Below, piece after piece: positions 3,793 through 19,247 of a stretch of DNA of 23,502 nt. A program made the translations under genes and the position numbers. Origin of the DNA: Halovenus sp. (GTDB lineage Archaea > Halobacteriota > Halobacteria > Halobacteriales > Haloarculaceae); assembly GCA_003551265.1 (NCBI GenBank), contig PUMG01000092.1, positions 1 through 23,502 on the forward strand, written 5' to 3'. Position 1 is the stretch's first letter. Every line of letters begins with the position of its first letter. The notes beneath the pieces are model-generated. The model was not told the DNA's origin. It ran no database searches and was given only the letters and a program-made list of their open reading frames with translations.

Positions 3793-3864
3793 GGAGTCGA
3801 CACCGCATCACTGTAATAACGATACGTCCGAGAGACCCACGACTGTCTCGTTGACGAGTGGAAA

Positions 3865-3873
3865 CTTATATTT
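3865..3873 (+). promoter_or_regulatory. TATA box of the BMP-type transporter operon
   Basis: CTTATATTT is centred about 30 bases before the ATG at 3900. It overlaps the codons that an alternative start at 3858 would use, which argues for 3900 and a leaderless or nearly leaderless mRNA. A 5-bp inverted repeat (GAGAC 3832-3836, GTCTC 3845-3849) just upstream could be a weak operator. Confidence 0.6.
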
Positions 3874-3899
3874 CATCCCGACAGAACTGTTCGCCTGTG

Positions 3900-4952
3900 A
3901 TGTTACGGCGTAATATTCTCAAAGCAGGTGCAGTGGGGCTCACTGTCAGCGTCGCGGGGTGTATCTCGGGTGGAGATGACGACGACAGCGGTGGGGGAAC
4001 GAACATCGGTCTTATTTACGGGAGAGGGGGAACCGGAGACCAGTCGTTCAACGACGCCGCCCACAGAGGCATCGAACAGGCCGTCGAGGAGTTCGACATC
4101 AGCTACGACGACGCAGGTCCCCAGAGCAGCGGGGATTTCGGCGAGTTCCAGAGCCAGTATGCTCGCTCGACGGACCCGGACTACGACCTCGTCATCTGCC
4201 TGGGCTTCGAACACGTCTCACCGTTAGAGGACAACGCCGACGAGTACGAAGACCAGCAGTGGGCGCTGCTTGACGACGTCCTCGACAGGCCAAACGTCGA
4301 GAGCTGGGTGTACGCCGAGCAACACGGCGCGTACATGGCGGGCGAGGTCGCCGCGAAGCTCTCCTCACAGGAGTTCGCCGCAGGGGCTGCAGAGACCAAC
4401 CCCGACGAGAAGACGCTCGGATTCGTCGGTGGTGCCGAAGTGCCTGTCGTCCAGGCGTTCGAGGCTGGCTTTCGCGCCGGTGCACAGAGCGTCGACGAGG
4501 AGTTCGAGGTGCGCTCGAGCTACGTCGGCGGGTTAGACAGTCCCGGCGACGTCGAGGAGGCAGCCATCTCGATGATAGACAGCGGGGCCGACGTTTTGCT
4601 CCACGGGGCCGGTGCGGGCGGCTCCGGGCTGTTCCAGGCCTGCCAGGACCGCGGCCGATTCGCCATGGGAGCTGACAGCCGCCAGTCTGAAACCGCTCCG
4701 GAGTTCTCCGACGTCATCCTGGGCAGTATCATGAAAGGCGTCGACGCGAGCGTCGTCAGCGCGGTTGAACGCGTCATCGAGGGCGAGTACGAGGGTGGCG
4801 AAACGTTCGAACTCGGCGTCGGCGAGGACGGCGTCGAACTGCTCTGGGGCGTCGACATCGGCGACGACATCCCACAGGATATCAGAGACGGAGCAGACGA
4901 GACTGCACAGGCCATCGCCGACGGCGACATCGACGTACCGAGAACGCCCTGA
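3900..4952 (+). CDS. BMP-family ABC transporter substrate-binding lipoprotein
   Basis: A 350-residue binding protein of the BMP/PnrA-like family, which in characterised members captures nucleosides or purines for import. The N-terminus MLRRNILKAG is a twin-arginine signal, and VAGC puts the predicted lipid-anchored cysteine at residue 21, followed by a Gly/Asp-rich tether; it should sit on the outer face of the membrane. The family pattern is seen in GLIYGRGGTGDQSFND at the start of the mature domain, then CLGFEH, EQHGAYMAGEVAA and GFVGG. DVLLHGAGAGGSG marks the second lobe. It is the first gene of a four-gene importer operon. Substrate is inferred only from family; haloarchaeal members are variously annotated as sugar or nucleoside binders. 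Confidence 0.9.
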   Translation: MLRRNILKAGAVGLTVSVAGCISGGDDDDSGGGTNIGLIYGRGGTGDQSFNDAAHRGIEQAVEEFDISYDDAGPQSSGDFGEFQSQYARSTDPDYDLVICLGFEHVSPLEDNADEYEDQQWALLDDVLDRPNVESWVYAEQHGAYMAGEVAAKLSSQEFAAGAAETNPDEKTLGFVGGAEVPVVQAFEAGFRAGAQSVDEEFEVRSSYVGGLDSPGDVEEAAISMIDSGADVLLHGAGAGGSGLFQACQDRGRFAMGADSRQSETAPEFSDVILGSIMKGVDASVVSAVERVIEGEYEGGETFELGVGEDGVELLWGVDIGDDIPQDIRDGADETAQAIADGDIDVPRTP

Positions 4953-4959
4953 GCGTGGC

Positions 4960-6513
4960 ATGAGCACTGCAGTTCAGCTCGAAGGGATCACGAAACGCTT
5001 TCCAGGTGGCGTTCTGGCCAACGACGACGTCGACCTGACGGTTGAGCACGGGACGGTCCACGCTCTCCTCGGCGAGAACGGTGCCGGGAAGACGACGCTG
5101 ATGAACGTGCTGTATGGGCTGTACGAGCCGACGGCGGGAACAGTTCGCCTCGACGGTGACGCCGTCTCTTTCGAGACGCCACAGGACGCCATCCAGCGGG
5201 GTGTCGGTATGATACACCAGCACTTCACGCTGGTCAGGCCCATGACGGTTCTGGAGAACGTCGCACTGGGATGGGAGCCGGTCAAATACGGCGGTCTCAC
5301 CATCGACGAGGCCACCATCGAAGAGGAACTCCGGGAGCTGAGCGAGCGCTACGGCTTCGGTATCAGCGAGCACATCCATACGCCGGTCGAGGAGCTGAGC
5401 GTCGGTACCCAGCAGCGCGTCGAAATTGTCAAAACGCTGTATAGGGGAGCAGATGTGTTCATCTTCGACGAGCCGACGGCGGTGTTGACCCCACAGGAGA
5501 GCGAGGAGCTGTTCGGTGTCTTCGACGAACTCATCGACCAGGGCAAGACGCTCATCTTCATCACCCACAAGCTCAACGAGGCGCTGACGGTGGCAGACAG
5601 AATCACCGTCCTGCGCGATGGGCGCACAGTCGAGACGTTCGACACCGAGGGTGCAACCACCCAGGAACTTGCCCGAAAGATGGTCGGCCGGGACGTGCTG
5701 TTGCGCGTCGAGGGCCGCGAGAGAGACCAGGGCGACCCCCGGCTGGTGGTCGACTCGCTGTCAGTCCGAACCAACCAGGGGCTTCCAGCGGTCGACGGTG
5801 TCGACCTGACCGTCCGTGGCGGGGAGATATTCGGCGTCGCCGGTGTCGACGGGAACGGACAGACTGAACTTGTGGAGGCGGTGACCGGTCTCCGTGATGT
5901 GGAGTCAGGAACGGTTGCGTTCGACGGGACGGACGTCACCGGTCTCTCGCGTCGGGAACGGATGAACCGTGGGCTGGCGTACATCCCCGGTGAGCGCCAG
6001 GAGCAAGCGCTCGTCATGGCGTTCGACCTGACGCAGAACGCCGTTCTGGGGAGCCAACACCGCGAGGAGTTTCGTGACGGCCGTCAGATAGACTGGGAAA
6101 GGGTGCGCGCTCACACAGCCGAGATTATCGACACCTACGACGTCCGGCCGCCGGACCCGACGGTGCTCGCCCGGTCGCTGTCGGGCGGCAATCAGCAGAA
6201 GTTCGTCGTGGGTCGGGAGTTTCTGCGCGACCCGGACATCGTGGTTGCGGCCCACCCGACCCGGGGCGTCGACGTCGGCAGCATGGAGTTCATCCACGAA
6301 CAGCTCATCGAGATGAGCGAGCGGGGAGCCGCGGTGTTGCTCGTCTCGGCCTCGCTCGACGAGGTGACCAGTCTCGCCGACCGCATCGGCGTCATGTACG
6401 ACGGGCAGTTCGTCGACGTCGTCGAACCCGACGCGGTGACCAAGACCGAACTTGGACTCCTGATGGCTGGTCAGCACCCGGACGAACCCGATGTCTGCCG
6501 GGAGGAACGATGA
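4960..6513 (+). CDS. ABC transporter ATP-binding protein, double domain, BMP/nucleoside-type
   Basis: A 517-residue cytoplasmic ATPase with two ABC domains in one chain, as in the RbsA/YufO-type importers. Domain 1 is intact: Walker A GENGAGKT at 38-45, Q-loop IHQHF near 85-89, signature LSVGTQQ at 146-152, Walker B FIFDEP at 167-172 and switch THK near 202. Domain 2 is degenerate in the family's usual way: GVDGNGQT at 295-302 lacks the Walker lysine, signature LSGGNQQ at 407-413 is good, and the Walker B region reads AAHPTRGVD in place of LDEP. One composite ATP site is therefore likely active. The ATG at 4960 follows the lipoprotein stop by seven bases; the frame is open much further upstream, but that part overlaps the lipoprotein gene. 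Confidence 0.92.
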   Translation: MSTAVQLEGITKRFPGGVLANDDVDLTVEHGTVHALLGENGAGKTTLMNVLYGLYEPTAGTVRLDGDAVSFETPQDAIQRGVGMIHQHFTLVRPMTVLENVALGWEPVKYGGLTIDEATIEEELRELSERYGFGISEHIHTPVEELSVGTQQRVEIVKTLYRGADVFIFDEPTAVLTPQESEELFGVFDELIDQGKTLIFITHKLNEALTVADRITVLRDGRTVETFDTEGATTQELARKMVGRDVLLRVEGRERDQGDPRLVVDSLSVRTNQGLPAVDGVDLTVRGGEIFGVAGVDGNGQTELVEAVTGLRDVESGTVAFDGTDVTGLSRRERMNRGLAYIPGERQEQALVMAFDLTQNAVLGSQHREEFRDGRQIDWERVRAHTAEIIDTYDVRPPDPTVLARSLSGGNQQKFVVGREFLRDPDIVVAAHPTRGVDVGSMEFIHEQLIEMSERGAAVLLVSASLDEVTSLADRIGVMYDGQFVDVVEPDAVTKTELGLLMAGQHPDEPDVCREER

Positions 6514-7691
6514 GAGAGCGCATCGAGTGGCTCTTCGGTGTCGTGCTACGGTTTTCTGCCGCCGAGCGGGTGCTGGTGAGTCTGTCGGCGGTCGTTTTCG
6601 CCATCTTCGTCGGTGGAGTCGTCGTCCTCGTGGCAGGCTATGCGGCTTCCTGTGAGTCAGCGGCGCTGTACATACTCGGCGCACCCGTCTGTTACAACCC
6701 GGTCGAGGTGTATCTGGTCATGCTGGAGGGGTCGTTCGGGGACAGTTTCAGCCTCGCGGCAACCCTGCAGTGGACGACACTCCTGCTGTTTACAGGGTTG
6801 AGCTTTGCCATTCCCTACAGGGCAGGGCTGTTCAACATCGGGGCACAGGGCCAGTTCATCCTTGGCTCGCTGGCGACGACGGTCACACTGCTCTGGCTGG
6901 CCGACCTCGCCCCATCCGGCCTCGCTGGGACGCTCGTACTCGTCCCAGTCGGTCTGTTCGCCGGGACCCTCGTCGGCGCTCTCTACGGGCTTTTGCCGGG
7001 GTATCTCAAGGTGCGTTTCGAGATGAACGAGGTTATCACGACGCTGCTGTTGAGTTTCATCGCTGCTGACCTCGCGTTCGTGGCCGTGGACCGCTTTTTC
7101 ACGACTGACGACATCCAGGGGACTGTTACCGACCGAATTCCCGAGGAGGCGACGTTCTCACCGCTCGTATTCCCCAGTTCGACCGACTTCTCGTTGCCCG
7201 TGTTCGTCTTCGCACTGGTCGTCGTGGCGGGCTGTTACTGGCTGTTGATGCGGACGGCTGTCGGCTACGACATCCGGGCAATGGGTGCCCAGCCAAAGGC
7301 GGCGGTGTTCGGCGGCGCGAGTCAGCGGTTCACGACGCTGTTTTCGATGACCGCCGCTGGCGCGGTCGCGGGCCTGGGTGGCGCAATCTACGTGATGATG
7401 ATACTCGGGCGCTGGCAGACTGGCACACCACCGCTGGGATTCGACGGCATCGCCGTCTCGATTCTCGCTGGCAACAACCCCGCAGGATTGCTCCCTTCGG
7501 GACTGCTTTTCGGCGCGCTCGAAAGCGGCGGCCGCGCGATTCAGTTGCGACTGGGCGTCCCGAGTGAACTCATCGAGGTGTTGCGCGGAATCATCATCCT
7601 GCTCGTCGCCACCCCCGAGCTGTTCCGGCTCCTCGGTGCGCATCTGAACAGACGTGGAATCATCGACGTCGACACTGGGGGGAGCGACTGA
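6510..7691 (+). CDS. ABC transporter permease, BMP/nucleoside-type (first permease)
   Basis: A 393-residue inner-membrane permease of the branched-chain-amino-acid/ribose/nucleoside class (BPD_transp_2). It has about nine to ten hydrophobic segments and the conserved loop GLFNIGAQGQFILGS, which contacts the ATPase side in this class. KVRFEMNEVITTLLLSFIA and the later segment GLGGAIYVM are also typical. Its ATG overlaps the ATPase stop by four bases (ATGA), and a good Shine-Dalgarno sequence, GGAGG at 6501-6505, lies just before it, so translation is probably both coupled and SD-driven. It pairs with the next gene to form the membrane channel of the importer. Confidence 0.92.
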   Translation: MRERIEWLFGVVLRFSAAERVLVSLSAVVFAIFVGGVVVLVAGYAASCESAALYILGAPVCYNPVEVYLVMLEGSFGDSFSLAATLQWTTLLLFTGLSFAIPYRAGLFNIGAQGQFILGSLATTVTLLWLADLAPSGLAGTLVLVPVGLFAGTLVGALYGLLPGYLKVRFEMNEVITTLLLSFIAADLAFVAVDRFFTTDDIQGTVTDRIPEEATFSPLVFPSSTDFSLPVFVFALVVVAGCYWLLMRTAVGYDIRAMGAQPKAAVFGGASQRFTTLFSMTAAGAVAGLGGAIYVMMILGRWQTGTPPLGFDGIAVSILAGNNPAGLLPSGLLFGALESGGRAIQLRLGVPSELIEVLRGIIILLVATPELFRLLGAHLNRRGIIDVDTGGSD

Positions 7692-8761
7692 TGCGTGCGG
7701 AGTTCGAGACCGCTGCGAAGTGGACTGTCGGGTTGCTCGGGCTGGTGCTTGCACTTCTCGTCGCGAGCGCGCTCGTCGCGCCCGACTCGGTGGCGGGTGA
7801 GGTTCTCGACAGGATGCTCGACGCTGGCTACGCGAGCGCGGTGCTCCGCGTCAGCGTCCCCATCACGTTCGCCGCACTGGGTGGTATCTTCGCCGAGAAG
7901 ACGGGTATCATCAACATCGGCATCGAGGGCTTTCTCATCCTCTCGGCGCTGAGCAGCGTCATTGCGGTCGTCTCTCTGACCGGTGCTGGCGTCGACCCGA
8001 CAGCCGCACTCTGGCTGGCTTTTTTCGTCGGAATTGCAGTCAGCGTCGTCACGGCGGGCGTGTTCGCTGTGTTCGTCATCAGATACCAGGCCAATCAGGT
8101 CATCGCCGGTCTCGCCATCTGGCTCATCGCTCTCGGTCTCGCCCCGTTCGTCTCGCTTGTGGTGTTCGAGACCGTCAACAGCCCCTCAGTCGGGACGTTC
8201 GGCACGTGGCGGATTCCGATCCTCGCGGAGCTGCCGGGTGTTGGTCCCGTGCTGTTCGACGCCTCACCGATGGTCTACCTGATGTTGCTCGCGGTCCCGC
8301 TGTGCTGGTACGTCCTGCGGTACACCCGACTCGGCCGGTACATTCGCGCCTGTGGTGACAACCCACGCGCGCTCGACACGGCCGGCATCAGCGTCAGCCG
8401 GACGCGCTACATCGGCGTGTTGCTCTCTGGCGTGCTCTGTGGCATCGGCGGGGCCGGGTTCACGCTTGGCCAACTCGGTCGATTCGTCGGCGCTGGTGAG
8501 ACGAGCATCGGCGGCCGGGGCTTTCTCGGCATCGTCGCCTACCTCTTTGGCAACTACAACCCCATCGCCTCCTTCGGCGGCGCGTTGCTGTTTGCGAGCT
8601 TCGACGCGCTCCAGTTTCGACTCCAGGAGATTGCCTTCCTCAACGTGCCCCAACGGCTCTTACAGGCGCTCCCGTTCATCGTCGTCATCCTGGTGTTGAT
8701 GCTCGTCGGCCGCACTCGGATTCCCGCCGCACTCGGCGAACACTACGACGAAAAGGAGTAA
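7691..8761 (+). CDS. ABC transporter permease, BMP/nucleoside-type (second permease)
   Basis: A 356-residue permease, the second half of the membrane channel. It has about nine to ten membrane segments and the signature AEKTGIINIGIEGFLILSAL, which is diagnostic of the shorter permease in nucleoside-type BMP systems; NQVIAGLAIWLIALGLAP and the C-terminal LVGRTRIPAALGEHYDE also fit. The start overlaps the previous stop by one base (TGATG), preceded by a G-rich stretch that could act as a ribosome binding site. The operon ends here; a T5 run at 8770-8774 just after the stop could serve as an archaeal terminator as well as part of the next gene's promoter. Confidence 0.92.
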   Translation: MRAEFETAAKWTVGLLGLVLALLVASALVAPDSVAGEVLDRMLDAGYASAVLRVSVPITFAALGGIFAEKTGIINIGIEGFLILSALSSVIAVVSLTGAGVDPTAALWLAFFVGIAVSVVTAGVFAVFVIRYQANQVIAGLAIWLIALGLAPFVSLVVFETVNSPSVGTFGTWRIPILAELPGVGPVLFDASPMVYLMLLAVPLCWYVLRYTRLGRYIRACGDNPRALDTAGISVSRTRYIGVLLSGVLCGIGGAGFTLGQLGRFVGAGETSIGGRGFLGIVAYLFGNYNPIASFGGALLFASFDALQFRLQEIAFLNVPQRLLQALPFIVVILVLMLVGRTRIPAALGEHYDEKE

Positions 8762-8798: not shown

Positions 8799-9266
8799 AT
8801 GGCAGAAGACCCGAGGACGGAGGGGTGGCTCGCACTCCTCGACGAGATGGAGGCGCTGGCCGCAGCGCTAGAGACTGAGGGCTGGGAACCGCTGACGATA
8901 CCGGCGGGTGATGCGAGCGCGGTTACTCCAGCACACGGGGCTACTGACCGCCATGGCTACGCGTACGTCATTCCGGGGAGCGCTGCTCAGACGTTCGAGA
9001 ACTGGTTCGAACCGGAGCGGTTTCCACGAACGGAAATTCACAGGGCGGTCCACGCGGGACAGTTATTCCTGCTGACGGTCCTGTTCGACCCCCCGACAGA
9101 GAGGACAATCCTGCTTGCAGGCGTCCTGGACCGGAGTTCGCTCGGCGAGTGTCGGCGGCTCGCTCACGAGACCGGCTCCATGTACTCACACGTGTTCAGG
9201 GTCGACGGAACGCACCTCGGGTCGTTCGAGCACGACGACCCGGAGCTGTTCTTTCCCGACGAGTGA
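8799..9266 (+). CDS. Conserved-looking haloarchaeal protein of unknown function
   Basis: A 155-residue soluble acidic protein I do not recognise with confidence; it resembles small single-domain proteins found only in haloarchaea. It opens with a helical acidic part (WLALLDEMEALAAALETEGW), then mixed strand/helix segments, with YAYVIPGSAAQTFENWF in the middle and a final stretch SHVFRVDGTHLGSFEHDDPELFF. No membrane segment, signal or metal-binding cluster is visible. Coding is supported by its own well-placed TATA box, acidic composition and GC-rich third positions. It stands alone between the two transporter operons, all on the plus strand, but its own promoter suggests independent expression. 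Confidence 0.75.
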   Translation: MAEDPRTEGWLALLDEMEALAAALETEGWEPLTIPAGDASAVTPAHGATDRHGYAYVIPGSAAQTFENWFEPERFPRTEIHRAVHAGQLFLLTVLFDPPTERTILLAGVLDRSSLGECRRLAHETGSMYSHVFRVDGTHLGSFEHDDPELFFPDE

Positions 9267-10410: not shown

Positions 10411-12099
10411 ATGGAGTACAGACCACTCCGCGAGCGCGTACGCGAACGCCCACGGCCGTTCCTCCTCTGGCTGCTCGGTGCGTTCGTCCTGGTCGGTATC
10501 GAACTCGGGCGCATCGCGTCGGGTCTCGTCGAAATCGGCGACGCCACTGCTGCAGCGCTCGAGACAGTTTCCGGCGGTATCTCGGACGCCCTCGCTGTGG
10601 GGGGAGCGACCGCAGTTGCGGTCTGGCTTGGAATTGGTGTCACGCTTGCACTCGTCGGACTGGCGATTGCAACCTGGACCCGCGCGACACTCGTCTTGCG
10701 GGTCACCGAGAGCATCCCCTTGCGTCCACAGCAGTCGCTCGACGGGCTGGTGTTCGGTCTCGCTCTCGGCGTGGGTGGCTGGTTCGCGCTTCAGGTTGGT
10801 GCGGTCGACGTGCTGGCTCGCCTTGCGAGCAGCGTCCGTTTCCCGCTCGGCTGGCTTGGAGAGCTACCGACGCTGACCAGCCGCGAAACGATTCCGAATC
10901 AGGGGTATCAGACTCCCGACGGAACCTGGCACGGCACATTCCTTGGTCTCTCGCCAGCGCTCGCGTGGACGCTTCGCGTCCTCGTTGTCCACCTCTACGT
11001 CGCAGCGTGGCTCATCTGGCTCTGGACGGGCTACCTGTGGTACCGCAACTACTACAGGCAGGCCGACTGGACGCCACGGGACGACGTGATTCAGCGACTC
11101 CGATACCATCGCTGGGGACAGTTCGGGATGGTCGTTGTCTTGCTGTTTCTGACGATGGCGGCGTTTGCGCCGTCGCTGGGAACGACGACCGCCGAACAGA
11201 ACATCTACGCGCCGTTCTCACACACCATCGAGTACTACGATGAAGAACTTGGGGAGGTGACAGATATTCTCGTCGGGAATGCAAACCTCAACACCCGCTC
11301 ACAGGGATACGCGGCCGAGAACGTCGGTCCGATGAGCTACGACCAGTACGACCGGTTCCACCCCTTCGGAACCCTGACAGACGGGTCGGACCTGTTCACA
11401 TTCCTCGTCCACGGTGCGCGTGTCTCACTGATAATCGGGCTGTTGAGCGTCGGCGTCAGCGCGATTCTCGGGACCGTCTTCGCGCTCGTCTCGGCGTACT
11501 ATCGCGGTCTTGCCGACCTCGTTCTCGTGGTCACGGGCGACACCATCATGGGCGTTCCCCGCCTGTTGTTGTTGATTCTGCTCACCGTGATACTGGCCGA
11601 TACGTGGCTGGCGTCGCTGTACGACGGCGGCGTGCTGCTGGCACTGATACTGGCAGCGACGGGGTGGCCGTTTCTCTGGCGCTCGTTCCGGGGACCGACG
11701 CTCCAGATTGCCGAAGAGGACTGGGTCGACGCTGCCCGGAGCTACGGGCAGTCGCCCTCGGGAATCATGCGACTGCATATGCTCCCGTACCTCGTCGGCT
11801 ACCTGCTGATATACAGCTCACTGGTACTCGGTGGCGTGATTCTCGCCGTTGCCGGACTCTCCTTTCTGGGACTGGGAATCACCGCACCGACGCCGGAGTG
11901 GGGCCGGGCCGTCGATCTCGGGCGAGAGTACGTCGCCACGAACTCGTGGCACATCTCGCTCATCCCGGGAATCATGGTCACCCTGGTGGTGATGGGGTTC
12001 AACGCAGTTGGCGACGCGCTCCGGGACGCGGTAGACCCACAGAGCGACGCAGGCGTCGCCAACGCGAGTGAGACAGAGTCGAGAGGTGGTGGTGTATGA
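10411..12099 (+). CDS. Peptide/nickel-type ABC transporter permease, DppC-like, with extra N-terminal membrane domain
   Basis: The second permease of the importer, 562 residues against about 300 for typical DppC. The canonical part begins near residue 228 (QRLRYHRWGQFGMVVVLLFL) and contains the external loop, DppC-type membrane segments (VHGARVSLIIGLLSVGVSA), the EAA helix (LQIAEEDWVDAARSYGQSPS...LHMLPYL) and the ending GITAPTPEWGRA with a last membrane segment. The first about 220 residues are an added domain with roughly four hydrophobic segments (about 17-35, 64-88, 113-135, 183-209) and a polar loop at 145-180. I recall long DppC proteins in other haloarchaea, so this may be a lineage feature; its role is unknown. 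It begins three bases after the previous stop and overlaps the next gene by four. Confidence 0.92.
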   Translation: MEYRPLRERVRERPRPFLLWLLGAFVLVGIELGRIASGLVEIGDATAAALETVSGGISDALAVGGATAVAVWLGIGVTLALVGLAIATWTRATLVLRVTESIPLRPQQSLDGLVFGLALGVGGWFALQVGAVDVLARLASSVRFPLGWLGELPTLTSRETIPNQGYQTPDGTWHGTFLGLSPALAWTLRVLVVHLYVAAWLIWLWTGYLWYRNYYRQADWTPRDDVIQRLRYHRWGQFGMVVVLLFLTMAAFAPSLGTTTAEQNIYAPFSHTIEYYDEELGEVTDILVGNANLNTRSQGYAAENVGPMSYDQYDRFHPFGTLTDGSDLFTFLVHGARVSLIIGLLSVGVSAILGTVFALVSAYYRGLADLVLVVTGDTIMGVPRLLLLILLTVILADTWLASLYDGGVLLALILAATGWPFLWRSFRGPTLQIAEEDWVDAARSYGQSPSGIMRLHMLPYLVGYLLIYSSLVLGGVILAVAGLSFLGLGITAPTPEWGRAVDLGREYVATNSWHISLIPGIMVTLVVMGFNAVGDALRDAVDPQSDAGVANASETESRGGGV

Positions 12100-13364
12100 C
12101 CGACGAGTCACAGGCCATGTCTGGTGTGACCGATGGACCGCTCCTCTCGGTCGAGAACCTTCGGACGACGTTTTACACCGACCAGGAGACGATTCACGCC
12201 GTCGACGGCGTCTCCTTTACGGTATCGCCACAGCAGACACTCGGCGTCGTCGGCGAGAGCGGGTCGGGCAAGAGCGTCACTGCCCGGTCGATACTCGGAC
12301 TGGTCGACGACCCCGGGCGCGTCCACCCAGACAGCGAAATCCGGTACCACGACCCGGCGTTCGTTCAGACGGTCGCTCGTACGTATCCGGACCGGGTCAC
12401 GTGGGCTGGTGAGAAGACGGCACGTAGCGCGTCCGACGCGTTCGTCACCATCGAATCCGGCTCCGGTGAGGGGTCGTCGGTGACGGTAGAGCGAGGCTCG
12501 GTCAACCTTGTGGCTGCACCCGACGACGTGACCCGCTCGCTTCGCGGCAGCGAGGTCGCGATGGTGTTTCAGGACGCACAGACTGCGCTCAACCCAGTCT
12601 ACACGGTGGGTAACCAGATCAAAGAGTTACTCGACATCCATCAGGGGCTGTCGGGGACAGAGGCGACCGAAGCGGCGGCCGACCTGCTCGAGAGCGTCGG
12701 AATTCCCGACCCGAAACGGCGGCTCAGCGAGTATCCCCACCAGTTCAGTGGCGGGATGCAACAGCGTACGGTCATCGCGCTGGCGCTGGCCTGTGACCCG
12801 GCCGTGTTGCTCTGTGACGAACCGACGACCGCACTCGACGTGACGATTCAGGCCCAGATTCTCGAACTGCTGGAGCGACTCCAGCACGAGCGCAACCTCT
12901 CGATTCTGTTCATCACGCACGACATGGGTGTCATCGCCCAGGTTGCAGATGCGGTTGCGGTCATGTACGCTGGAGAGGTCGTCGAACAGGCATCGGTCGA
13001 CCGACTGTTCGACCAGCCCAGACACCCCTACACGCAGGGGCTGCTCCAGAGTATTCCCGGACTGGCAAGCGAGGGTGACCGTCTTCCCACTATCGACGGA
13101 CGCGTGCCGACGCCGAACGAACCAGCAACGTACTGTCGGTACGCGCCGCGGTGTCCGGAAGCCTTCGAGGAGTGTAAATCGACTCACCCCGAGCGCGTCC
13201 CTGTCGACAGCGCAAACGAGAAGTCGGGCTGGATGCGAGCACACACCGCTGCCTGTCTCCTCTACCCCGAGGATGAATCACTCGAGGACCGCCTCCAGAT
13301 GCACCACAACTTCGGAGCACCGGACGAAAGTGACGCGGCAACCACAGCGAGGGAGGACGACTGA
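12096..13364 (+). CDS. Peptide/nickel-type ABC transporter ATP-binding protein, DppD-like
   Basis: A 422-residue cytoplasmic ATPase, longer than the usual about 330. Walker A GESGSGKS is at 53-60, Q-loop VFQDAQ at 157-162, signature FSGGMQQ at 217-223, Walker B LLCDEP at 238-243 and the switch histidine at 275. Between Walker A and the Q-loop about 50 extra residues (roughly 83-140), hydrophilic and Ser/Glu-rich, are inserted. The C-terminal oligopeptide-transporter domain carries four cysteines (347, 353, 360, 387) in the pattern that binds a [4Fe-4S] cluster in some homologues. Its ATG overlaps the permease stop (ATGA), with GAGGTGG just upstream as a possible ribosome binding site. Together with the next protein it should energise the two permeases. 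Confidence 0.92.
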   Translation: MTDESQAMSGVTDGPLLSVENLRTTFYTDQETIHAVDGVSFTVSPQQTLGVVGESGSGKSVTARSILGLVDDPGRVHPDSEIRYHDPAFVQTVARTYPDRVTWAGEKTARSASDAFVTIESGSGEGSSVTVERGSVNLVAAPDDVTRSLRGSEVAMVFQDAQTALNPVYTVGNQIKELLDIHQGLSGTEATEAAADLLESVGIPDPKRRLSEYPHQFSGGMQQRTVIALALACDPAVLLCDEPTTALDVTIQAQILELLERLQHERNLSILFITHDMGVIAQVADAVAVMYAGEVVEQASVDRLFDQPRHPYTQGLLQSIPGLASEGDRLPTIDGRVPTPNEPATYCRYAPRCPEAFEECKSTHPERVPVDSANEKSGWMRAHTAACLLYPEDESLEDRLQMHHNFGAPDESDAATTAREDD

Positions 13365-14665
13365 TGACAGAGCAAAACGACGAACAGGACGACCCGCTCG
13401 TGGTCGTCGACGGACTGCGGACGTACTACGGAAGCGAGCGATTACTCGGCGGTGAGCCAGTCAAGGCCGTCGATGGCGTCTCCTTCGAAATCGCTCGCGG
13501 GGAGACGTTCGGTATCGTCGGTGAGAGTGGCTGTGGCAAGACAACACTCGGGCGGAGCATTCTTCGACTCGAGGACGCTGACAGCGGGACCGTCGAGTTC
13601 GATGGGACGGACCTGCTCTCGCTTGGCAGGCGCGACCTCAAAGCGTGGCGGCGGAACGCCCAGATGGTCTACCAGAACCCGACGTCGAGCATCAACGAAC
13701 GGATGACCGTTGGCCGGATTGTCCGCGAGCCGCTGGATATCCACGACTGGGGGATGCCACACGACCGCCGGAACCGGGTGTCGGAACTGCTCGACCGCGT
13801 CGGTCTCCAGCCCGAGCACTACCACCGCTACCCACACCAGTTCAGCGGCGGCCAGCGCCAGCGAATCGGCATCGCCCGGGCGCTCGCGCTCGAACCCGAC
13901 TTTATCGTCCTCGACGAGCCTGTGAGTGCGCTCGACGTAAGCGTTCAGGCGAAGATTCTCAACCTGCTGTTGGACCTCCAGGATGAGTACGACCTCACGT
14001 ACCTGCTCATCGCCCACGACCTCTCGGTCGTCCGCCACATCTGTGACCGGGTCGGGGTGATGTACCTCGGAAAGCTCATGGAGGTCGGCCCGACCGAACA
14101 GCTGTTCCGGTCGCCGTCGAACCCCTACACTCGGGCACTGCTGTCGGCGATTCCACAGCCCGACCCGGATGCTGGTGCGGACCGTATCACGCTCCGTGGG
14201 ACGCCACCGAGTCCCCGCAACCCGCCCACTGGCTGTGTGTTCTCGACCCGGTGTCCGTTCAAAATCCGTCGGGAGGAACACGAGTCGCTCACCACCGAGC
14301 AGTGGGACAGCATCGAGGAGTTCAGAGACGTACTCCGCGAACGCGAGAAGCTCCGAACGACGCCACTACAGCGGGTCAAGGCGCGGCTCGGACGTGAACC
14401 ACCTGTGACGCCCATCGAGGAAGTCGTCTCGGAACTGTTCGAGCTTTCTACCTATCCGGAATCCGTCCAGGAGACGGTCGACCAGACGGCGACACTGGTT
14501 GTTGAAGGTGAATTCACAGCGGCACGGGAACTGCTCGAGGAGACGTTCAGCACGGTCTGTGAGCACGAGCGCCCCGACCAGCACCAGGTCGCGGATGGAC
14601 AGGCGAGTCGCTGTCACCGTCACCTGTCTGAGTACGAGGAACCCCGGGAGTTCCTATCCGAATAG
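13364..14665 (+). CDS. Peptide/nickel-type ABC transporter ATP-binding protein, DppF-like, with C-terminal insertion
   Basis: A 433-residue second ATPase of the importer. Walker A GESGCGKT is at 53-60, Q-loop VYQNP at 102-106, signature FSGGQRQ at 160-166, Walker B IVLDEP at 181-186 and switch histidine 208; all catalytic residues are present. In the C-terminal domain the first two cysteines (291, 297, in CVFSTRCPF) are separated from the last two (399, 417) by about 100 residues of charged helical sequence, where typical DppF has about 30 or fewer. I recall similar long forms in haloarchaea. The start overlaps the previous stop by one base, and GGAGG at 13352-13356 is a good Shine-Dalgarno. 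It is the last gene of the BCDF block. Confidence 0.92.
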
Positions 14666-14700: not shown

Positions 14701-15948
14701 ATGAGAGAAGGTACGGACCAGACTCCGGTTGCTGGCGTCAAAAACCGCTCGCCGCTTTTGTGCTCGTACGCCGAACAGTACCAGCGCTCGAAGCCGTTCG
14801 ACGGCCTCACTATTGGTGTGTGCGCACCGCTGACGCCGCATACCGGCCTGTTCGCCGATGTGCTCGCAACGGGCGGCGGTGAGGTACTCGTCACCGGCGA
14901 GGCGGGGAGCACTCACGCCGATGTCGTCGAGTGGCTCCGGGAGCGGCCGGGTGTGACACCACTTGCTGCGGCCGGAATGACGGCGGACGAACTGGCAGAC
15001 ACGCGAGAGACGGTGCTCGAAGCAGAGCCGGACCTGCTCGCCGACGACGGCGCGTTCCTGCTGAGTCTGGTTCACGACCGATTCCCCGAGATTGCACGGG
15101 GTGTTCGTGGTGCGTGTGAGCAGACGACGGGCGGTATCACCCGTCTTCTGGCGATGGACGAACAGGATGCGCTCTCGTTCCCGGTCTACGACGTCAACGG
15201 GACGCCGATGAAACAGCACTTCGACAACGTCCACGGCACCGCCGAGAGTTCACTGTCGGCGATTACGTCGCTCACAGACACGATGATTGCCGGTTCTGTC
15301 GCAGTCGTCGCGGGCTACGGCCACTGCGGCCGCGGCATCGCCCGGAAACTCAGAGCGCTCGGTGCCCGGACAGTCGTCACCGAGGTCGACCCGCGCAAGG
15401 CGCTGGAGGCGCTCGCCGATGGACACGACGTTGAGCCGATGGCCGACGCGGTGGCCGATGCCGATCTCGTGATAACTGCGACTGGGCGCTACCAGGTGCT
15501 TCGACGCGAACACGTCGACACACTCGCAGACGGCGTCGTCGTCGCCTCCATCGGCAGCGCAATCGAAATCGACGACAGCGCACTCGCCGACGAGGCCACC
15601 TCGAACACGACAGAAAAACCCGGTGTCGAGCGATACGAGTTACCAGACGGCCGTCGGGTGACGCTGCTCACGGAGGGGAAGGTCGTGAACCTGGCAGCAC
15701 CGGGACGTTCCGGGAACCCGAGCCACGTGATGGATACGACGTTCGCCATGATGACGCGCGGACTCGCGGATCTCGCCGACAGCGACCTGCCGCCGGGACT
15801 GCATCCGGTTCCAGACCATCTTGACAGAGAAGTCGCCCACGAGAAGCTGTCGGCGATGGATGTCGATATCGACCAGGTGACAGCAGCACAGCGCGACTAC
15901 CACGACCGCTGGGAGACACACGACAGCACCAAACCGGACGAACAGTAG
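14701..15948 (+). CDS. Divergent S-adenosylhomocysteine hydrolase-like protein (active-site residues changed)
   Basis: A 415-residue relative of SAHH, the NAD-dependent enzyme that splits S-adenosylhomocysteine. The fold is clear: DDG at 115-117, EQTTGG at 140-145, VNGTPMKQHFDNVHGT at 165-180, the NAD Rossmann loop GYGHCGRG at 205-212 and TEGKVVNLAAP at 324-334. Lys171 and Asp175 (human Lys186, Asp190) remain. Human positions His55, Glu156, His301 and His353 are Pro43, Gln141, Ser286 and Asn339 here, so ordinary SAH hydrolysis is doubtful; NAD binding probably persists. Haloarchaea normally carry a standard SAHH as well, so this is likely a paralogue with another substrate, or a regulatory one. 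It lies between a Dpp-type importer and its presumed binding protein, with its own TATA box. Automatic annotation would probably call it adenosylhomocysteinase. Confidence 0.85.
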   Translation: MREGTDQTPVAGVKNRSPLLCSYAEQYQRSKPFDGLTIGVCAPLTPHTGLFADVLATGGGEVLVTGEAGSTHADVVEWLRERPGVTPLAAAGMTADELADTRETVLEAEPDLLADDGAFLLSLVHDRFPEIARGVRGACEQTTGGITRLLAMDEQDALSFPVYDVNGTPMKQHFDNVHGTAESSLSAITSLTDTMIAGSVAVVAGYGHCGRGIARKLRALGARTVVTEVDPRKALEALADGHDVEPMADAVADADLVITATGRYQVLRREHVDTLADGVVVASIGSAIEIDDSALADEATSNTTEKPGVERYELPDGRRVTLLTEGKVVNLAAPGRSGNPSHVMDTTFAMMTRGLADLADSDLPPGLHPVPDHLDREVAHEKLSAMDVDIDQVTAAQRDYHDRWETHDSTKPDEQ

Positions 15949-15983: not shown

Positions 15984-17840
15984 TCACGACCGGTCGCTCA
16001 GTGAGAGTTCGTTGAACTTCTGACTGTACTGTGGGCCGTGCATCCCGAAGTTCTCGACCCAGTCGTACCAGTACCGTTCGCCGACGGGATGCCAGAGGGG
16101 AAGCTGTGTCATATCCTCCCAGTTCGCGCGTTCGAGTTCGATATAGGACTCGTTTCGAACCTGCTGGTTCTCCTCGCCAGGGGTGCGGTGGTCCTCGTAG
16201 CGCTCCCACGCGTCGGCGGCTTGCTCGGCGGCCTCGGAGAGACCGTCCTCACCCTGTCCCCACTGCGTCCACGTGAACGGGTTGGGGTAGGCGAACTGCA
16301 GGGTTGCGTCGGCTTCCTGCCACTCGAGTTCGTTCCACACGCCGTAGACATCGATGTCGCCCTCGATAGCCCGGTTCGTGAGCGTCGTTGCCGGTGCCTC
16401 CTCGATATCGAGGTCGATGTGGACGGTCTCTGCGAGGTCGCGGAGGAGACTGGCTATTTCGCGCCACTCTGACGCCTGCGAGTCTGAGGGGTGCTGGAAG
16501 GTCGTCTCGTACATATCGTTCTCGCTGTATCCCGCCTCTTCCATGATTCGGGCAGCGTCGTCGAGGTTCGACTCGCCGTAGCCGTAGGGATACTCGGCCT
16601 GTGCGATGTCGTCGTAGTTCTCCGGACCCTCCGGGAACGCCGTTGGGGGTGTGAGGAAGTACGCTGGCTGGCCCTGTCCGCGCACCGCCGCGTCGATGAT
16701 GGTCTCCTGGTCGAGAATGTAGGCAATCGCCTGTCTGGCTGCTTTCTCGACGGTGAGTGTGTTGAACAGCAGGTACTGCGTCCGCAGGAGTGTCACCTCA
16801 CCATAGTTGAGCGTCTCGTCGTTTGCGACTGGTCCGTACGTCCCGAGCCGTCGTCCATCGTCGAGGTCCTCTTCGATTTCCAGAAGCGAGGGGTCGAACT
16901 GCGAGCGCGGGATGTCGAAGATGTCGGCGTTTTGTTCGTTCACCGCGTATGTGTACTGGGCGTTCGGGTCCTCGGTAATCTGCCAGCGAACCTTCGAGAG
17001 GGTGGCGACCGAACCGTGATAGTCGTCGAAGCGCTCGATGACGATTTCGCTTCCCCGGTCCCACCTCTCCAGGGAGAATGGCCCAGTCCCGTGGACGTGT
17101 TCGGTCGACCACTCCTCGTAGCTCATCTCGCCCTCGTATCCCTCGATATCTCCGACGATACCCTCCGGAATAATCGAAAAGCGCGGGTCGGCGAGCATGC
17201 CGAGCGTGCCGTGGAACGGAGTTTCGAGCGTCATCTCCACAGTGTACTCGTCGACTGCCTCGAGTTCGAGCGTGTCGGGGACGAGTTCTTCGTCCTCGCC
17301 TTCGGTCTCGTGGGCGACCGACATCACGCCGCCGACGATTCTGTCCCCGTGGCCGCGGTTGTTCTCGGACTCTGCGAGTCGCCGCCAGGAGTAGACGACG
17401 TCGTCCGCCGTGAGTTCGTCACCGTTGTGGAACTGGACACCCTCCTGCAGTTCGAAGGTGTACGTCAGATAGTCGTCGGAGACATCGTAGTCAGTTGCCA
17501 GCTCTCCGATGACCGGCGGCATCCCGTTCTCGTACGTGAACAGCTGTTCGTGTATCTGCCAGTTCGTTCGTGCAGATGCTGGTCCCGCAATGCCGATCGG
17601 GTCCAGCGTCTGCTGTTGAATCTGCATGAGCTGGAGCACTGAGTCGTCGCGGTCTTCGTCGTCTGTGTCGTCTGCGTCGACCGGGTCGTCGTCGCCCGTG
17701 TCATCGACATCGACTGGGTCGTCGTCGGTATCGTCTACGTCGACCGGGTCATCGTCGTCACCGATACACCCTGCGAGTGCGACTGTCGTCGCTGCCCCCG
17801 CCGCAGTCAGAAACCTGCGCCGGTTCATATCTGATGGCAT
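15984..17840 (-). CDS. Peptide/nickel-type ABC substrate-binding lipoprotein (SBP family 5)
   Basis: A 618-residue extracytoplasmic binding protein, presumed partner of the BCDF importer at 9389-14665. The N-terminus has a twin-arginine motif (NRRRFLTAAG) and lipobox LAGC with the lipid-anchored cysteine at residue 25, followed by an Asp-rich repeat tether (28-66). The mature part matches SBP_bac_5: the segment from QTLDPIG to QIHEQLFTYENG at the start, then LTYTFELQEGVQFHNGDELT and ADDVVYSWRRL. AARQAIAYILDQETI lies mid-protein. The start at 17840 is chosen because a TATA-like ATTAAAC sits about 26-28 bases upstream; the ATG at 17828 is the alternative and leaves the Tat signal intact. The gene is convergent with the SAHH-like gene and divergent from the M24-like hydrolase. 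Ligand unknown: the family binds peptides, metals, sugars and more. Confidence 0.92.
   Translation of the reverse strand: MPSDMNRRRFLTAAGAATTVALAGCIGDDDDPVDVDDTDDDPVDVDDTGDDDPVDADDTDDEDRDDSVLQLMQIQQQTLDPIGIAGPASARTNWQIHEQLFTYENGMPPVIGELATDYDVSDDYLTYTFELQEGVQFHNGDELTADDVVYSWRRLAESENNRGHGDRIVGGVMSVAHETEGEDEELVPDTLELEAVDEYTVEMTLETPFHGTLGMLADPRFSIIPEGIVGDIEGYEGEMSYEEWSTEHVHGTGPFSLERWDRGSEIVIERFDDYHGSVATLSKVRWQITEDPNAQYTYAVNEQNADIFDIPRSQFDPSLLEIEEDLDDGRRLGTYGPVANDETLNYGEVTLLRTQYLLFNTLTVEKAARQAIAYILDQETIIDAAVRGQGQPAYFLTPPTAFPEGPENYDDIAQAEYPYGYGESNLDDAARIMEEAGYSENDMYETTFQHPSDSQASEWREIASLLRDLAETVHIDLDIEEAPATTLTNRAIEGDIDVYGVWNELEWQEADATLQFAYPNPFTWTQWGQGEDGLSEAAEQAADAWERYEDHRTPGEENQQVRNESYIELERANWEDMTQLPLWHPVGERYWYDWVENFGMHGPQYSQKFNELSLSDRS
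17664..17756 (-). repeat. Tandem repeat encoding the acidic tether of the binding lipoprotein
   Basis: Three in-frame units of 30, 30 and 33 bases encode DDDPVDVDDT, DDDPVDVDDT and GDDDPVDADDT just after the lipobox cysteine. They probably form a flexible, salt-tolerant spacer between membrane anchor and binding domain. The repeat is long enough to change copy number by slippage or recombination. Confidence 0.85.
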
Positions 17841-17975
17841 GCGAGAGGTTAACGGAGTACCAGGGTTTAATGCTTGCCATTAATCGATACCACACAGCAA
17901 CGTTAATTCTGCTCCTCGAACTGGTTCCGTGTGGAACAGCACGATTTAGTTACTCGCAGAGATAGATACGAACGG
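17841..17975. promoter_or_regulatory. Divergent promoter region with inverted repeat, binding protein versus M24-like hydrolase
   Basis: On the minus strand ATTAAAC (17865-17871) serves the binding protein. On the plus strand GTTAATT (17902-17908) lies about 26 bases before a GTG at 17931, and TTTAGTT (17945-17951) about 28 bases before the ATG at 17976. A perfect inverted repeat TTAATG-cttgc-CATTAA (17867-17883) overlaps the minus-strand TATA box, where a bound protein would be expected to block it. GTTAAC (17848-17853) is a further palindrome. No regulator gene is adjacent. Confidence 0.5.
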
Positions 17976-19247
17976 ATGACGTTTCACGAACGCGACTACA
18001 TGGAGGGAACGCTCGGCACACAGGCGGTCGACTGGGAAGAGCGCATCAACACCCAGCGTCTGCGTACCGAGCGCACAGAGCGCGCACTCGAACGACTACA
18101 GGACAGCGACCTCGGCGCGGTGCTCTTGCTGTCGGACCCGAACATCCGGTACGTGACGGGGCTGGCGATGACCGGCGGCAGCGGCGCAGACCACTACACG
18201 CTGCTCACCGAAGACGGCGACATTGTCCACTGGGACACGGCCGACCACGCAAGCAACCAGCGCAAACACTGCCCGTGGCTCGAAGACATCCGCTACGCCT
18301 GTCCCGGACTGGGGAACGTCCCCCGTGCATCCGGTCGAGACTCCGCCCGTCAGTTCCTCCTCTCGAAGATGGCCGAACTGGTCGCCGATGCGATGGTCGA
18401 ATACGGCGTGGAACACGAGACGCTCGGTCTCGATGTCGGCAATCAGGGTCTCGTCAGCGCGCTCGAAGCGCAGGGGGTCGACGTCGATACGGGGACCGCA
18501 CCCGACCTCATGCTCGACGCACGAAAGACGAAGACGAAAGACGAAATCGAGTGTCTTCGGATGGTTGCGGCCATCTGTGAGGCTGGCTTTCAGCGTATCA
18601 CCGAGACAGCGAAGCCGGGTATGCGCGAGACAGAGGTCTGGGGCGAGACGGTGTCGGAACTCTGGCGTCACGGCGCGTTTGTCGGCGGGGGCTATCTCAC
18701 GAGCGGCCCGAACACCTGGCCGAAACACCAGGCCAACACCACTGACCGGATGATCCGGCCCGGCGACCTCGTCTACGCCGACTTCTACAACATCGCCTAC
18801 CTCGGCTACCGCTCGTGTTACTACCGGACGTTCTCGGTGGGTGAGCCAACGGCAACACAGCGCGACGCCTACGAGACCGCACGTGACAATCTCTACGACG
18901 TGCTCGAACGTATCGAGCCGGGAGCGACGACCGACGAAATCGCCGAGGGATTCCCGGACATGGAGGGTGAACACGCCGACTACTACGGGGCTGAGGAGCC
19001 CTGGCAGATGACGACGAACCACTGGGCGCACGGTCTCGGACTCCAGCTCTATGAGGTGCCGCTCATCTGGCGTGGACTCTCGCCGGAGCACCCGATAGAG
19101 ATAGAGGAGGGGATGACGATGGCCGTCGAGACCCAGGAACCCGCAGGCAGACAGGGTGTGCGCATCGAGGAGATGGTCGTCGTCCGCGAGAACGGCGTCG
19201 AGATACTGAGCCAGTGGCCTATCGAGGAGATCACGCGAATCGAGTAG
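17976..19247 (+). CDS. Pita-bread fold hydrolase, M24/creatinase/DddP-like, with altered metal site
   Basis: A 423-residue protein of the aminopeptidase P/creatinase superfamily. The creatinase-type N-terminal domain (LSDPNIRYVTG at 53-63) is followed by the pita-bread domain from about 190. Usual metal ligands are matched at Asp269, His352 (AHGLGL), Glu385 and Glu398, but the second aspartate of the DxTRT motif is Cys281 (SCYYRTF). The segment TSGPNTWPKHQ (242-252) resembles DddP, the DMSP lyase, from memory. Non-peptidase members (creatinase, ectoine hydrolase DoeA) also depart from the ligand set, so I infer a non-peptidase role. The ATG at 17976 is favoured by a TATA box 28 bases upstream; a GTG at 17931, with its own TATA-like box, would add 15 residues. 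Divergent from the binding protein, it probably acts on the imported compound. Confidence 0.85.
   Translation: MTFHERDYMEGTLGTQAVDWEERINTQRLRTERTERALERLQDSDLGAVLLLSDPNIRYVTGLAMTGGSGADHYTLLTEDGDIVHWDTADHASNQRKHCPWLEDIRYACPGLGNVPRASGRDSARQFLLSKMAELVADAMVEYGVEHETLGLDVGNQGLVSALEAQGVDVDTGTAPDLMLDARKTKTKDEIECLRMVAAICEAGFQRITETAKPGMRETEVWGETVSELWRHGAFVGGGYLTSGPNTWPKHQANTTDRMIRPGDLVYADFYNIAYLGYRSCYYRTFSVGEPTATQRDAYETARDNLYDVLERIEPGATTDEIAEGFPDMEGEHADYYGAEEPWQMTTNHWAHGLGLQLYEVPLIWRGLSPEHPIEIEEGMTMAVETQEPAGRQGVRIEEMVVVRENGVEILSQWPIEEITRIE

Follow-up and report, generated by a model that had tools for sequence, protein, structure and literature searches.

A haloarchaeal paralogue of S-adenosylhomocysteine hydrolase that keeps the C3'-oxidation residues and lacks the C5' catalytic residues and the gate

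The gene analyzed here lies at positions 14,701 to 15,948 of a 23,502-nucleotide stretch of DNA from Halovenus sp. (assembly GCA_003551265.1, contig PUMG01000092.1; the whole stretch is called the window below) and belongs to the family of S-adenosylhomocysteine (SAH) hydrolase (SAHH). In crystallographic work on mouse SAHH, Thr157 and Lys186 are assigned to the 3'-OH and Glu156 and Asp190 to the 2'-OH of the substrate, whereas His55, Asp131, and His301 are described as serving the 5'-OH and the elimination and water-addition step (PMC4647836). In the same description, His301 within the GHF motif is the gate to the homocysteine channel, His353 contacts the base via main-chain atoms, and Glu59 contacts the base edge. 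Roles in base reading have been reported for the HxTxE and HxExK motifs, and some Euryarchaeota are reported to have two or more SAHHs whose motifs differ (Koeppl et al. 2024, PMC10978960).

Two kinds of SAHH paralogue that do not act as SAH hydrolases are described. AgmF, annotated as an SAHH, is reported to be an SAHH-type NAD-dependent dehydratase of angustmycin A biosynthesis that holds NAD tightly and acts on angustmycin C, not on SAH; its H56A, D129A, K184A, D188A, and H299A variants were each inactive, and its authors call its homologues widespread (PMC8599513). The animal proteins AHCYL1 (IRBIT) and AHCYL2 are described as inactive SAHH-fold paralogues with substituted catalytic residues and regulatory roles, and the formation of AHCYL1 heterotetramers with AHCY as debated (PMC12955632). 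A literature search that covered few subscription journals found no paper on the haloarchaeal SAHH paralogues considered below.

Active-site residues of the paralogue and its orthologues

The gene and its product are as follows:

14701..15948, + strand: P0001 (415 aa), the family A SAHH paralogue, with the residues for NAD binding and C3' oxidation retained, the catalytic equivalents replaced, and the GHF gate deleted

The open reading frame (ORF) is intact, with 415 codons and zero internal stops. P0001 has the SAHH fold with AdoHcyase and NAD-binding domains (PF05221, 76 bits; PF00670, 140 bits). The best solved relative was the Thermotoga enzyme (3x2e, E value 2.4e-80, residues 8-407), and alignments to SAHH spanned residue 6 or 8 to 407. 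The chains aligned were those of Thermotoga, Pyrococcus, and Synechocystis rather than the human one; the human/mouse numbering used here was transferred through motifs and the residue roles given in PMC4647836. In these alignments, His55, Asp131, Glu156, His301, and His353 were replaced by Pro43, Phe119, Gln141, Ser286, and Asn339, and Lys171, Asp175, and the NAD loop GYGHCGRG at 205-212 were retained. A profile built from five orthologues gave the identical register.

Orthologues were sampled by whole-genome searches of 293 genomes of the order and by one contig scan. Together they gave 13 distinct members, including the window gene, from Halovenus, Halopenitus, and six metagenome-assembled genomes (MAGs), which we call family A. 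Among the matches listed, family A occurred in five of the 293 genomes (the window's own, G000, and G224, G076, G153, and G222; G and L numbers denote genomes and loci). The contig scan gave 11 loci, from Halovenus salina, H. rubra, H. aranensis, Halopenitus persicus, Halopenitus malekzadehii, and six MAGs. One member, QS_4_66_20, was truncated in the gene call (342 aa). Across 196 genomes sampled from the phylum (33 belonging to the same order), the best matches from outside the order (G310 and G319; 1e-97, 41%) scored below every family A and family B gene found.

All 13 members had Pro for His55, Gln for Glu156, Gly for Thr159, Ser for His301, and Asn for His353, and in all 13 the GHF gate was reduced to Gly-Ser by a one-residue deletion. 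The equivalents of Thr157, Lys186, Asp190, Asn181, Asn191, Glu243, and Asn346 were kept in 13 of 13, and we take the last four to have roles in NAD binding. Around the base, a PxTxH motif with invariant Thr45 and His47 replaced the base-reading HxTxE(Q) or HxExK of SAHH and S-inosylhomocysteine (SIH) hydrolase (SIHH) in every member. Of the four hydrophobic residues that PMC4647836 places in the base pocket, Leu54 was uniformly Ala and Leu347 uniformly kept, and Met358 and Phe362 were kept in the 12 readable members, one of the 13 being unreadable there. Position 119, the Asp131 equivalent, was His in five members, Asn in four, Tyr in three, and Phe in one; because it varies, Phe119 is not a hallmark of the family.

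Since Pro43, Gln141, Ser286, and Asn339 are common to all 13 orthologues, these substitutions go beyond chance. Family A is under purifying selection and clearly constrained: the ratio of nonsynonymous to synonymous substitution rates (dN/dS) was 0.14-0.31 in 10 of 10 pairs among five members, looser than for the neighboring M24 and DppB genes and similar to that of DppA.

An earlier note on this DNA, made from the letters alone, had named the five substitutions and the retained Lys171, Asp175, and NAD loop, and the alignments bear it out on both. It had also stated that most catalytic and adenosine-binding residues were lost. The catalytic loss stands; the adenosine-binding part was too strong, as Thr157, Lys186, Asp190, and three of the four base-pocket hydrophobic residues (Leu347, Met358, and Phe362) are kept. 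The gate deletion, family B, and the bacterial parallels described below are additions to that note.

A predicted model of P0001 (mean pLDDT 83.5, pTM 0.76) had low confidence at about 171-180 and 330-336. Its root mean square deviation from SAHH chains was about 13, which may reflect a different domain opening. In view of this deviation and the low-confidence stretches, we drew no pocket geometry from the model.

Standard SAHHs, family B, and bacterial paralogues

The window's genome holds three SAHH homologues, namely the window gene, a family B copy on contig C44 (46%), and a standard copy on contig C24 (43%). The earlier note's reading of the window gene as an SAHH paralogue is supported. 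The standard gene (L003/L097) lies directly downstream of an amidohydrolase gene, whose product resembled SAH, methylthioadenosine, and 5'-deoxyadenosine deaminases below the curated cut-offs. Family B, defined by a motif (D131E with EQTT), was found in at least 25 of the 293 genomes, where genomes with a single SAHH match, and the two copies of G187, were taken as standard without a motif check. Loci were called with an in-house codon-usage gene caller, which missed or mis-called family B in L048 and L080. In contrast to family A, family B kept His55, His301, His353, and GHF and showed D131E, E156Q, and T159A in 24 of 24 aligned rows. These rows leave out L020 (G213) and L028 (G146), which are mis-called long frames, and L095 (G219); two of the three differ, with Ser for Thr159 and GHR for GHF. 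The E156Q exchange (Gln141 in P0001) is common to families A and B.

In the phylogenetic tree, family A formed one clade (100/100), and families A and B formed a joint clade (100/100) and thus share a common origin. Six standard haloarchaeal copies (L003, L026, and L029-L032) formed a separate clade (99/97). The unity of family B was weakly supported (93/47), so family A may be the sister of family B or may have arisen within it. Both families were present together in four of the five family A genomes of the 293-genome set (p 2e-4), compared with at least 25 of 293 for family B overall; because three of these four genomes are from one genus (g45), the co-occurrence is not independent.

Protein-family models treated these homologues differently. 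With TIGR00936 (ahcY; curated cut-off 497.6 bits), the standard copy of the window's genome passed at 545, the family B copy of H. salina just failed at 488, and P0001 failed at 349.3. NF004005 ('adenosylhomocysteinase'), which P0001 passed with 377.3 against 275 bits, accepted the standard copy, family A, family B, and two bacterial paralogues that lack active-site histidines.

These two bacterial proteins are encoded on plasmids, and were among 13 plasmid-derived rows taken from 11 of 109 matching records. On the Roseateles sp. XES5 plasmid, two 'adenosylhomocysteinase' genes overlap in tandem (L086, 5914-8426); sugar ABC transporter genes lie on both sides, and the locus also has a LacI regulator and an amidohydrolase. 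The first paralogue keeps the histidines and has D131E. In the second, His55, Asp131, His301, and His353 are replaced by Val, Ser, Gly, and Asn. The Rubrobacter radiotolerans plasmid paralogue (L088, 5923-7188) has Pro for His55, Gly for Asp131, and Gly for His301; genes for a HAD hydrolase and a bile acid:sodium symporter adjoin it. In the tree, both lie on long branches outside the haloarchaeal clade (100/99), so their losses look independent of that in family A. Close relatives lacking the same residues were not seen among the plasmid rows listed for Roseateles and Rubrobacter, which were checked in part. All 13 plasmid-derived rows retain Lys186; at the Asp190 position, nine have Asp and four have Glu. 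The plasmid copies of Ensifer, Rhizobium, Vibrio fortis, and Photobacterium (L089-L092) represent a further variant, with Glu for Asp190, Asn for His353, and intact His55 and His301.

Genomic surroundings of families A and B

The other features of the window are as follows:

3858..8761, + strand: basic membrane protein (BMP)-type ABC importer (binding protein, ATPase, two permeases; ORF calls)
8799..9266, + strand: DUF7529 protein (Pfam PF24373), also upstream of dppB in L054, L056, L062, and L063
9389..10408, + strand: Dpp/Opp-type permease ('DppB'; NCBIfam dipeptide/nickel permease models), below curated cut-offs, same order in related loci
10411..12099, + strand: Dpp/Opp-type permease ('DppC'), below curated cut-offs, same order in related loci
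12096..13364, + strand: Dpp/Opp-type ATPase ('DppD'), below curated cut-offs, same order in related loci
13364..14665, + strand: Dpp/Opp-type ATPase ('DppF'), ending 35 bases before the SAHH paralogue start
15984..17840, - strand: Dpp/Opp-type substrate-binding lipoprotein ('DppA'), below curated cut-offs, convergent with the SAHH paralogue
17931..19247, + strand: M24-family hydrolase, DddP/ectoine-hydrolase-like, far below curated cut-offs

Dpp genes lie beside family A in 10 of the 13 loci, and dppA adjoins it in eight loci besides the window (L053, L055-L059, L062, and L063). The earlier note's placing of the gene in an importer locus thus holds for these 10 orthologues but not for the three from Halopenitus. 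H. salina and H. aranensis have a single locus with family B, a 286-aa NAD-dependent epimerase/dehydratase of the short-chain dehydrogenase/reductase (SDR) type, DUF7529, dppBCDF, family A, dppA, and the M24 hydrolase. The ATPase of the upstream importer (3858..8761) resembled sugar/B6-type ABC ATPases below the cut-off; we take the importer to be of BMP type. Three other genomes carry relatives of its genes around family B.

The M24 hydrolase and a 320-aa epimerase of the window were at first assumed to be partners of family A and were then treated as background, because in five of seven M24 loci from genomes without family A (L064, L065, and L067-L069; not L066 or L070) the two also lie together within one 20-kb stretch. 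The M24 gene is probably background also because it occurs in 108 of the 293 genomes, nearly all without family A. Its conservation is unusually high, with 72-89% identity beyond the window's own copy. The 286-aa SDR near family B and the window epimerase are only about 25% alike and are treated as separate. Of RNA families, one tRNA (L046) and nothing else reached gathering scores across the window and six loci related to it.

Recognized importers or transporters lie beside family B in 17 of the at least 25 genomes. These are a QueT-type energy-coupling factor (ECF) transporter in 12 (G005, G017, G019, G035, G076, G106, G140, G153, G191, G213, G222, and G286), a BMP-type importer in three (G043, G238, and G268), and a major facilitator superfamily (MFS) gene in two (G099 and G133). 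No importer was recognized beside family B in seven genomes (G002, G008, G013, G016, G058, G146, and G219); the reference set for these neighbors consisted of proteins from the window, ECF and MFS proteins, and a few more, so that importers of other kinds could escape. In the window's genome, a contig end truncates the family B locus on one side. QueT-type S components occurred in 21 of the 293 genomes, 13 of them with family B (Fisher p 5e-11); in 12 of these 13 genomes the distance between the two genes was about 5 kb or less, and in the 13th they lay on different contigs.

Several further genes were observed near these loci. An SDR of 284-295 aa recurs near family B (L056, 2405-3265; L063, 3259-4119; also L043, L046, L049, L052, L081, and L082, in the last about 10 kb away). 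In L049 (10710-12761), an inosine-uridine nucleoside hydrolase and a class II aldolase lie beside family B and a BMP-type importer. In L077 (9135-11657; G013), the gene directly after family B encodes a second amidohydrolase, which is 50% alike to the deaminase-like neighbor of the standard SAHH. Family B is missing from two loci with a QueT-type ECF transporter, L071 and L072. In L071, QueT adjoins a TbsP-like regulator and is near a fused Mur-ligase/pterin-binding (folate-type) gene, and L072 has genes of the same size. Taken together, the neighbors of families A and B point to the import and breakdown of nucleoside-type compounds, without naming the substrate.

Proposed reaction and alternatives

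Compared with the residue roles in PMC4647836, family A keeps the 3'-OH pair, keeps half of the 2'-OH pair, and has lost the 5' trio. Because His353 contacts the base via main-chain atoms, its replacement by Asn need not change that contact. Given these residues, P0001 and its orthologues are very probably not SAH hydrolases. The three residues for breaking and re-forming the bond are lost and those for NAD-dependent oxidation are kept, so the label 'adenosylhomocysteinase' is probably wrong for family A. With the 5' trio lost and the AgmF variants at these sites dead, C5' elimination of homocysteine or water is unlikely. AgmF shows by precedent that this fold can support a new nucleoside reaction, although family A lacks three of its five essential residues and keeps the equivalents of its Lys and Asp188, as mapped by SAHH position.

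We consider that family A may be an active enzyme that oxidizes a nucleoside-type substrate with NAD, a reading to which we give a probability of a little under one half (about 0.48). The protein would hold NAD and most likely a nucleoside or riboside, and would no longer hydrolyze SAH or SIH. The half of the SAHH site retained (Thr157, Lys186, Asp190, Asn181, Asn191, Glu243, and Asn346 equivalents) would serve oxidation, and the half lost (His55, Asp131, His301, and the GHF gate) would have served elimination and addition at C4'/C5'. Family A may thus oxidize the 3'-OH of an imported nucleoside-type substrate, which might then lose a substituent other than that at C5', for example the base at C1' via C2' deprotonation; alternatively, the 3'-keto product might be given off. 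Such an activity would belong to an import-linked catabolic system, in most genomes alongside the histidine-keeping family B. Of the NAD-assisted oxidation and elimination suggested in the earlier note, the oxidation half is compatible with the residues kept, but the C5' elimination is unlikely, with its three residues gone.

Several points weigh against this oxidative role. SAHH recycles its own NAD, and a protein confined to oxidation would have to release or re-oxidize NADH. Low dN/dS cannot separate an enzyme from a binding protein, and E156Q and T159G touch the half of the site that we call kept. The tree flags long branches between family A and the rest. Three of the 13 family A loci, all from Halopenitus, have no directly adjacent importer and have uvrA and a tatC-family gene as neighbors; at one of them (L034), an ABC importer set is located on the far side of uvrA, about 5-8 kb off. 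H. rubra (G224, 98% complete) has family A and no family B match among the matches listed. The bacterial parallels are imperfect, as the Rubrobacter paralogue keeps His353, and the gates of both bacterial paralogues read GGG or GGV, with His and Phe lost without a deletion.

The main rival, in our judgment rather unlikely, is that family A is catalytically dead and regulatory in the manner of IRBIT, either as a sensor of NAD or nucleosides or as a non-catalytic subunit in mixed tetramers with family B or standard SAHH. A protein that has lost its catalytic residues but retains the fold and the NAD residues would fit such a role, as in AHCYL1 and AHCYL2; these animal proteins differ in carrying the N-terminal IRBIT extension, which family A lacks, and family A lies mostly in prokaryotic importer loci. 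Pairing with family B, which shares a locus with family A in two named Halovenus species, and the overlapping Roseateles pair of one histidine-bearing and one histidine-less paralogue would also suit a mixed assembly, but H. rubra appears to have family A without family B, and most of the co-occurrence comes from a single genus. Moreover, the Lys186, Asp190, Thr157, and Asn181 equivalents are invariant, although they are not obviously needed for pure binding.

Less probable still is a hydrolase or lyase acting on a new 5'-substituted riboside, with His47 or Gln141 as new acid/base groups. The invariance of Thr45 and His47 at the base-reading position would favor this, as would AgmF, which indicates that the SAHH fold can accept a new nucleoside substrate (PMC8599513). 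However, His47 occupies the site of Glu59, which in mouse SAHH faces the base edge and not C5' (PMC4647836), and position 119 in the 5' site varies among His, Asn, Tyr, and Phe, unlike a catalytic pocket.

It is very improbable that families A and B serve the salvage of queuosine- or archaeosine-type 7-deazapurine nucleosides, as an NAD-dependent nucleosidase freeing the base. The S component beside family B (the L038 copy) matched QueT (PF06177) with 66.6 bits against a cut-off of 33.7, and two haloarchaeal plasmid records label this neighbor 'QueT transporter family protein'. In bacteria, QueT/QrtT ECF transporters are reported to import queuosine precursors, and nucleoside hydrolases to free the base (PMC11130926). 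Tested indirectly through the distribution of queC, this salvage was not supported. The gene was absent from 12 of the at least 25 family B genomes versus 59 of 268 others (Fisher p 0.007), but several of these queC-less genomes are incomplete, which makes the excess weak, and it was absent from only three of the 12 genomes with QueT beside family B. In addition, QueT was seen beside family A in none of the 13 loci, some being short contigs, and family B also lies beside BMP-type and MFS transporters.

Least credible is that the annotation is correct and family A is still an SAHH or SIHH with unusual residues, or that the gene is decaying: the NF004005 match (377 vs 275 bits) would favor the former, but P0001 fails TIGR00936 (349 vs 497.6) where the genome's standard copy passes, alanine exchanges at the two matching His and the matching Asp each inactivate AgmF, and the dN/dS of 0.14-0.31 together with the substitutions common to all 13 orthologues speaks against decay.

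The oxidative reading of family A can be extended, tentatively and with the balance of probability against it, to a recurrent class of gate-less SAHH paralogues with at least three origins (family A and the Roseateles and Rubrobacter plasmids) that keep only the C3'-oxidation half. Such proteins might act in an import-linked redox pathway, often beside a histidine-bearing sister, through a 3'-keto intermediate and base loss, as NAD-dependent nucleosidases, and not by 5'-thioether hydrolysis.

The naming of these paralogues by NF004005 is a source of annotation error, by which methyl-cycle reconstructions based on annotation miscount SAHH. If the extended proposal is true, the SAHH site would have been split more than once, with the oxidation half kept, for the catabolism of imported nucleosides, and a redox route would join the hydrolytic and phosphorolytic breakdown of nucleosides. 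Family A would then be a natural control for which SAHH residues serve which step.

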